Shown piece after piece: positions 4,353 to 5,551 of a DNA stretch of 64,000 bases (the stretch's first letter is position 1; the number at the start of each line of letters is the position of its first letter). The notes under the pieces were generated by a model, which saw nothing but the letters and a program-made list of their open reading frames with translations, made no database searches and was not told where the DNA came from. This stretch comes from Klebsiella pneumoniae (lineage in GTDB: Bacteria > Pseudomonadota > Gammaproteobacteria > Pseudomonadales > Pseudohongiellaceae), in contig CAMDML010000006.1 of assembly GCA_945902215.1 (NCBI GenBank), forward strand, positions 1 to 64,000, written 5' to 3'. Made by a program: the position numbers and the translations under genes.

Positions 4353-4445
4353 TGCCGTTTTAGAAAAACTGGAAAAATCCAAAAACTCTACTAGGGTGAG
4401 GACGAGGCTCGCCCATACGTTCGCATTGATTTTTGAGTATTAACT

Positions 4446-5207
4446 ATGAATACAGCTATCCAGACAGAAGTAAAAGCTCCCTATTTTGGCGCTAGGGCAG
4501 CAGGTGTCATCCTGATTGTTGCGTTAGTTACCTATATATTTGGTGATTATTTGCTACTGAGGCTATTGCGCCATTTTCAAGAAACGGCCGGAATATTTTC
4601 GCTACAAGAAAATAATGAAAACGAAATAATGGCGATGAGATCGGCGATTCTAGGAGTGGTTAATCCTGCTCTAACAATGGTTGTTTGTGTTGCCATGCTC
4701 AGGACATATTTCCCGAGAGAATCCATTAAAGAGCTATTCAATCGGTTTGGGCTGGTGGGAAGGCCTTCATTAAAATTACTTGTTGCAGCTTTTCTGGGCG
4801 GCATGGCTTATTTGTTTTTTTTCTCAAAAGTCTTAATGCATATATTTCCACCAGATCCATTTGCGGTACCGCATCCCGCAAACATCATAAATTTTGCTCC
4901 CATTTGGTGGAAAATAATTTTTGCGGTGACTGTTGTCACAATTGTGCCGATTTCAGAAGAGTTCATGTTCAGAGGGGTTTTGTATCAGGGAATTATAAAC
5001 TCCTGGGGTAAATTTGTTTCGGCAATATGTGTGGGAGCTGTTTTTGTACTATTGCACCCAGATACCATTAAATCAGGATACTGGATAACACATTTGGCGC
5101 TATATTTGTTCCCGATTTTTATGGTTTTAATTCGTGAAATTACAGGGGCCTTATTTGGTTCAATAATGGCACATTCTGGATTTAATTTTGCAGAGATATT
5201 TTTCTAA
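4446..5207 (+). CDS. CPBP-family intramembrane glutamic protease (Abi/CAAX type)
   Basis: Polytopic inner-membrane protein of 253 residues with several hydrophobic helices. All three CPBP motifs are present: E171-E172-xxx-R176, F200-xxx-H204 and H243-xxx-N247, so it should be catalytically competent. Known family roles include CAAX-type proteolysis and, in bacteriocin loci, self-immunity or peptide processing. The gene is AT-rich (22 of 60 bases are G/C at 4501-4560), unlike its neighbours, which suggests horizontal acquisition. It lies directly upstream of a gene for a double-glycine-leader peptide, so an immunity or processing role for that peptide is my inference. Confidence 0.85.
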   Translation: MNTAIQTEVKAPYFGARAAGVILIVALVTYIFGDYLLLRLLRHFQETAGIFSLQENNENEIMAMRSAILGVVNPALTMVVCVAMLRTYFPRESIKELFNRFGLVGRPSLKLLVAAFLGGMAYLFFFSKVLMHIFPPDPFAVPHPANIINFAPIWWKIIFAVTVVTIVPISEEFMFRGVLYQGIINSWGKFVSAICVGAVFVLLHPDTIKSGYWITHLALYLFPIFMVLIREITGALFGSIMAHSGFNFAEIFF

Positions 5208-5300
5208 TTTGACTTTTTGAATAACGGCTGAGGCCAGAGCGGCGGTTATCTGAATTGTCATAAGGCAACTCAGTCATTTCTCTGGAAACAAGGAGTGTTT

Positions 5301-5507
5301 ATGAGAACTTTAAATTCTATGGAGTTGGAAAATGTTTCAGGGGGGGATTGGTCTTGGGAAGTAGATTTGGGAATTACCAAATTCATTGTTTCTGGTGAAG
5401 AGTCCGTCCAAGAAATAGTTGGTGGTGCTTACGGCGGTGCCGTAGACGCCATGGCCAACTTCTTCACCTGGTGGGATCCGGCCGGATATTACAGTTCTGG
5501 ATGCTAG
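5301..5507 (+). CDS. double-glycine leader peptide, bacteriocin/microcin-like
   Basis: 68-residue peptide. Its first 15 residues, ending in ELENVSGG, match the class II bacteriocin double-glycine leader cleaved by C39-peptidase exporters. The predicted mature part is 53 residues, starting DWSWEV. It has a small-residue stretch (VGGAYGGAVDAMA) that could form a membrane helix, several Trp/Phe, and a single C-terminal Cys. The start is decided by AAGGAG at 5290-5295, five bases before ATG 5301; a GTG at 5295 would overlap that site. The CPBP protease gene lies 93 bases upstream. No C39 exporter is in the window. The bacteriocin identity is inferred from the leader only. Confidence 0.7.
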   Translation: MRTLNSMELENVSGGDWSWEVDLGITKFIVSGEESVQEIVGGAYGGAVDAMANFFTWWDPAGYYSSGC

Positions 5508-5525
5508 ACAGCAGTAGCAACGTAT

Positions 5526-5551
5526 GGCCCCGTAATTCGCTTTACGGGGCC
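5526..5551. terminator. strong hairpin between convergent genes
   Basis: A perfect 10-base-pair stem (ggccccgtaa paired with ttacggggcc) with a 6-base loop. It sits 19 bases after the peptide gene stop and 20 bases before the end of the convergent GST gene. There is no clear T-tract on either strand, so it may be a bidirectional but imperfect terminator. Confidence 0.6.

Follow-up and report, generated by a model that had tools for sequence, protein, structure and literature searches.

The 64,000-nucleotide stretch of DNA analysed here (the window) contains a recurrent, real and microcin-like unit in which a gene for a CPBP intramembrane protease is followed by a gene for a small peptide with a double-glycine (GG) leader. 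Eight such pairs occur in seven species of two genera, a count that includes both members of a tandem pair in genome G789. The cassette would be laid out as promoter block, CPBP gene, structured RNA, GG-peptide gene and closing hairpin, and the RNA, a pseudoknot between the two genes, is its most novel part. The explanation that we modestly favour is a class II microcin-like cassette with an intramembrane protease for immunity, an exporter provided in trans and a cis-acting RNA that sets the translation of the peptide. The conserved pseudoknot RNA, the invariant C-terminal motif of the peptide and the presence of other GG-peptide/intramembrane-protease cassettes at the same chromosomal site go beyond the original prediction, which had described an AT-rich island with a GG peptide and a CPBP protease. 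The host is a gammaproteobacterium whose known genomes are of metagenome type. Nearly all verified class II microcins are from E. coli or Klebsiella (PMC9746304), and the cassette is a lineage-specific, recurrent two-gene unit outside these organisms, with an invariant peptide tail, an exporter apparently in trans and a covarying pseudoknot at which translation could be gated.

The peptide gene lies at positions 5301-5507 of the forward strand (start ATG 5301, stop TAG 5505-5507) and encodes 68 amino acids, with the leader (5301-5345) and the mature part (5346-5504, 53 aa) delimited by the leader pattern and by comparison with relatives. The precursor begins with MRTLNSMELENVSGG and continues after the leader/mature boundary at GG15 with DWSWEV. 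Its Shine-Dalgarno sequence, AAGGAG at 5290-5295 of the same strand, is located 5 nt before the ATG and 4 nt after stem 2 of the pseudoknot; gene, GG leader and AAGGAG site had been predicted and are all found in place. The leader positions L(-12), E(-8), hydrophobic (-7), V(-4), G(-2) and G(-1) are shared between the window peptide and its relatives, and the GG positions are kept in all eight peptides, one of which reads AGG. When the eight are aligned, the leaders are near-invariant, the middle is variable, and every sequence carries the tail FF[TE]WWDPAG[YF]Y, which is FFTWWDPAGYY in the window (codons at 5460-5492, forward strand). Relatives in other species are 44-60% identical and the DNA of the invariant motif shows synonymous differences among them, which establishes the peptide as a real gene. 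The mature peptides are acidic, with a net charge of -6 to -10, and contain many aromatic residues. The single C-terminal Cys, noted in the original prediction, is not supported as a defining trait: it is present in three of the eight peptides and absent from L016, L028a, L028b, L083 and L084. Judged from its sequence, the precursor has the double-glycine leader that is a feature of class II microcins, with HMM scores under the curated cut-offs: it resembles Bacteriocin_IIc and MccV weakly, reaches no Pfam or NCBIfam cut-off, and has its best match with Bacteriocin_IIc at E=0.0033. The predicted structure is poor (pLDDT 52), and no occurrence of the WWDPAG motif was found in the literature searched.

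The gene in front of it (4446-5207, forward strand) codes for a 253-aa, Rce1-like CPBP intramembrane protease, which matches PF02517 with E=1.1e-11 (45.3 bits against a cut-off of 22.4) and is the sole match to this family in the genome at E<=0.001. Its three catalytic motifs, recognised correctly beforehand, are EEFMFR (171), FVLLH (200) and HSGFN (243), and the corresponding EExxxR, FxxxH and HxxxN motifs are found in all eight CPBP proteins. The gap between the CPBP stop codon and the peptide ATG is exactly 93 nt, as had been stated. The AlphaFold model of the protein is all-helical (pLDDT 82) and has no Foldseek match in the PDB at E<=0.001, and a search of PDB chains by sequence gave no match either. 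In G009, the CPBP gene (L015:5717-4953, minus strand) has an in-frame TAG at codon 55 and stands beside an intact peptide gene. If this nonsense codon is real and not an assembly error, it is awkward for strict immunity; a downstream start could still yield a 184-residue core with all motifs.

Full-length relatives of the peptide are encoded in G008, G009 and G010 of the window's genus and in G788, G789 and G792 of a second genus of the same family, and were found nowhere else among 137 genomes of the family, 391 of the order and 369 of the class, the last two sets being samples. Each of the full-length peptide genes adjoins a CPBP gene and comes directly after it (8/8), which is the recurrent pairing that had been named as support for the original prediction. 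Outside the genus, profile scans of the order and class sets returned nothing beyond leader-type or weak matches. One match in G303, FFPWFDPAGYF with a stop within it, was set aside as a likely chance similarity or remnant. Viral contigs contain no relative of the peptide, plasmids no convincing one (E=0.7), and phages and plasmids no CPBP relative, so that a mobile vector as carrier of the cassette is rejected, as is a known defence or phage family, since nothing was found in PADLOC or PHROGs.

The four pairs of the window's genus share one site, which extends from a thioredoxin gene (or an adjoining AlbA-like or flavin-oxidoreductase gene) to a GST gene; the contig of G008 starts inside the AlbA-like gene. 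In the second genus, the pairs have as neighbours an M48 protease gene, a gene for a large, presumably transglutaminase-like protein, or both. In other congeners, the thioredoxin-GST site is without this cassette. In G005 the site falls on two contigs with a terminal stretch in common, and it is occupied there by two unrelated genes, of which one weakly matches TPR (L061:6125-7451), which makes the thioredoxin-GST gap look like an insertion hot spot. At L028:3768-6186, on a contig equal in length to that with the tandem pair of G789, the whole CPBP-RNA-peptide cassette is duplicated in tandem, and the two peptides have leaders and tails alike with middles that are only 38% identical.

G+C amounts to 41% in the CPBP-peptide stretch, compared with 57% (sd 2.7) for the window on average, and the stretch includes the lowest-G+C 1.1-kb segment of the whole window, in agreement with the AT-rich island described earlier. 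The idea that the unit was acquired stands in part: odd composition and patchy presence speak for it, but it is not a recent lone insertion, given the one fixed thioredoxin-GST site in four congeners. As the CPBP gene of G003 is not AT-rich, low G+C is not intrinsic to pairs of peptide and protease. The 10-bp hairpin that was said to close the island lies at 5526-5551 of the forward strand, 3' of the peptide gene, and a hairpin is present downstream of the peptide gene in relatives too. It is a possible transcript end, and no intrinsic terminator is called because there is no clear U-run.

Other cassettes at the thioredoxin-GST site combine a GG-type peptide with an intramembrane protease. In G003 (L059:3992-5031, minus strand), an unrelated GG peptide ending in YVFPYIYYCL is followed by a divergent CPBP protein (PF02517 E=2.3e-14), and a pseudoknot was looked for at this locus and not found. 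In G006 (L055:3233-4577), a peptide with a GG/GA leader comes before a rhomboid protease (PF01694 E=6.8e-14); this cassette also carries a 5' pseudoknot and the upstream block, with no CPBP gene in front. A GG-type peptide adjoins an intramembrane protease at this site in six of the eleven congeners, and the CPBP-free status of the others may not hold, as a whole-protein CPBP search of the congeners missed the divergent protein of G003. Since a single site on the chromosome holds a rhomboid variant as well as CPBP variants, the role of intramembrane proteases for such peptides is directly testable.

The structure of the intergenic RNA, an H-type pseudoknot at 5221-5285 of the forward strand, is supported by covariation and compensatory changes in the compared sequences. 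Stem 1 is formed by 5221-5225 with 5245-5249 and by 5227-5230 with 5240-5243, loop 1 by 5231-5233, and stem 2 by CCAGAG (5234-5239) with CTCTGG (5280-5285). The general layout is stem 1, a loop 1 of 2-3 nt, and a stem 2 that joins the 3' part of the hairpin loop to the strand just upstream of the Shine-Dalgarno sequence; the third loop holds a hairpin CTGA...TCAG (5250-5273, forward strand), which is predicted by the minimum-free-energy fold and is similar in relatives by eye. The pseudoknot is present in seven of the eight CPBP cassettes and in the rhomboid cassette of G006, the exception being G009, where the intergenic region is just 13 nt long and the RNA is missing. L083 has one mismatch in stem 2, and L016 fails the strict form with an inner stem of three pairs. 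RNAalifold found stem 1 on its own in the unspliced alignment; in six of its ten pairs, both partners are altered in at least one sequence. For both stems, 98.1% of cells are paired in the CPBP cassettes, with a covariation of 0.368 against 0.161 in shuffled alignments, and with G006 added the values are 97.5% and 0.398 against 0.166, figures that come from alignments spliced around the structure, from few and related sequences and from shuffles that ignore kinship. The strict architecture appears in 0 (L055), 3 (L028b), 7 (window) and 13 (L017) of 1000 shuffles; a permissive scoring was satisfied by 3-29% of shuffles and was dropped as evidence in favour of the strict form and covariation. 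A covariance model with stem 1 but without stem 2 has a match immediately upstream of the G006 GG peptide (E=0.028 in 309 kb of sequence, 0.0008 when this locus is searched by itself) and gives a slightly better, structure-less match nearby on the other strand of the same locus. Stem 2 of G006 is built with new letters, ACTGGA/TCCAGT. Rfam covariance models gave chance-level matches only, none of them in the intergenic region, and other copies of the pseudoknot were found neither in a sample of about 1.2 Mb of this genome nor near the exporters or other GG peptides examined.

The pseudoknot probably sets the translation of the peptide and not of the protease, as suggested by its position before the Shine-Dalgarno sequence and by the cassette in which the 5' leader of an unrelated GG peptide contains it without a preceding CPBP gene. 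H-type pseudoknots next to the Shine-Dalgarno sequence occur in some preQ1 and SAM-II riboswitches. The element described here is similar to these in being a two-stem pseudoknot just upstream of the ribosome-binding site, whereas its longer third loop holding a hairpin and the lack of an Rfam family match set it apart. Literature on RNA control of microcins, judged by title and abstract, yielded nothing relevant. It is unlikely that the element acts instead as a DNA operator, or as a stem for processing or decay of the CPBP mRNA, although stem 1 by itself is an inverted repeat, the single-sequence folding energies are not unusual and the element is not known to bind a ligand or protein. An operator would leave unexplained that stem 2 pairs the hairpin loop with a distant strand and covaries, and neither role fits well with G006, where no CPBP gene precedes the element. 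A wider claim, to which we give slightly less than even credence, is that translational control is exerted by an undescribed cis-regulatory pseudoknot RNA family; it would control GG-peptide translation and travel with cassettes whose exchangeable protease (glutamic CPBP or serine rhomboid) is a dedicated partner, intramembrane proteolysis being the basis of immunity or maturation.

The statement that there is no exporter holds for the neighbourhood of the cassette but not for the genome, which has exactly one C39 domain (E up to 10), located in an ABC exporter on a separate contig (C18) and unlinked to the cassette. The Cys, His and Asp of the C39 triad, Walker A and LSGGQ are present, and just upstream of the exporter gene lies a HlyD gene (PF13437 E=1.7e-16). 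A C39 peptidase-ABC exporter supplied from elsewhere in the genome, as had been anticipated, is thus available, and its use by the cassette is plausible. C39 domains are also found in ten of the eleven congeners. Other GG-peptide genes of the family (L087, L089, L091 and L092) each adjoin a small gene for a possible membrane protein of about 90-130 aa, with no exporter visible nearby; these are possible further microcin-immunity pairs with an exporter in trans. Since several GG-peptide genes of the family have no visible exporter nearby, exporter-in-trans cassettes seem ordinary in it.

In a class II microcin-like cassette, the GG leader would be recognised and the precursor probably cut after GG15 and exported by the C39 ABC exporter of C18 together with HlyD. 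The mature acidic and aromatic peptide would then probably act on related bacteria, and its invariant FF[TE]WWDPAG[YF]Y tail may meet a conserved target or uptake receptor. The CPBP protein would most probably give self-immunity, similar to McsI in microcin S, a role suggested by its family, by adjacency and by the tandem locus, where the presence of one CPBP for each peptide speaks rather for immunity. To judge from the rhomboid variant, membrane proteolysis seems to matter under either role, immunity or processing. Several observations count against the microcin-like reading: CPBP and the variable part of the peptide do not convincingly diverge together (Mantel p about 0.05 overall and 0.58 within the second genus), the intact peptide gene of G009 accompanies a CPBP gene that carries a nonsense codon, a diversifying toxin would not usually have an invariant C-terminal tail, and no curated family cut-off is reached by the peptide.

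Known systems share parts of this arrangement. Microcin S (mcsSIAB, E. coli G3/10) also has a GG-leader peptide adjoining a CAAX/CPBP-family gene and a C39 ABC exporter with HlyD partner, and its CAAX-protease-family protein McsI confers immunity (PMC3316575). The exporter genes of microcin S are clustered with the microcin, unlike those here, and its precursor is glycine-rich with 120 aa, in contrast to the 53-aa acidic, aromatic mature peptide of the window, where in addition the CPBP gene comes first and the pseudoknot RNA lies between the two genes. The pAWOD920 locus of Aliivibrio wodanis likewise includes a GG-motif peptide together with a CAAX protease of PF02517 for which a role in self-immunity has been proposed (PMC4462113), but is a six-gene plasmid locus with its own exporter and with genes similar to microcin E492 maturation genes.

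The main rival reading, which we regard as doubtful, is that CPBP is a maturation or sorting protease that cuts or releases the peptide, perhaps at the C-terminal motif, and that the product may be a signal and not a toxin. SilX, a CPBP protease at the angicin bacteriocin locus of Streptococcus anginosus, offers a precedent, with evidence that it takes part in the processing or export of a signal peptide rather than in immunity, albeit in a Gram-positive organism (PMC9298176). The invariance of the motif next to a varying remainder of the mature peptide, the two catalytic classes beside GG peptides at one site, which suggest that proteolysis matters, and a weak match to the sorting protease MrtJ (E=3.4e-5, below the cut-off) point in the same direction. 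In the known C-terminal sorting signals, however, a hydrophobic helix plus basic tail follows the motif, and neither follows it here. The CPBP protein of G003 adjoins a peptide without the motif, the tandem locus retains one CPBP per peptide though one enzyme should suffice, and proteolytic activity is compatible with immunity as well. Very improbable is a peptide that is not secreted, with the pair acting intracellularly, for instance in the manner of a toxin-antitoxin system or as a regulatory membrane pair; no exporter gene adjoins the pair, but the conservation of the GG-leader positions in the peptides and a C39 exporter with intact catalytic residues in the genome argue against this.

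The upstream block AGAAAAACTGGAAAAATCCAAAAACTCTACTAGGGTGA (4362-4399, forward strand) is common to all eight cassettes, is ungapped in the alignment of the eight upstream regions and represents a promoter candidate. The pattern AAACTGG...TACTAG is found in cassettes of both genera, less strictly in L015, L016 and L017, and the G006 cassette is preceded by a CTGG-N16-TACTAG match. Within 277 kb of loci, CTGG-N15-17-TACTAG occurs in cassettes only, and in about 1.2 Mb sampled of the same genome at two further places. From the sequence, the block is probably a host promoter class shared with another gene, as suggested by a close copy at L109:6449 (minus strand, G000:C10) that precedes a gene for a small, apparently exported protein (MKRTSIPVLTLTALLGFG...), itself downstream of a gene that looks like an SAH hydrolase.
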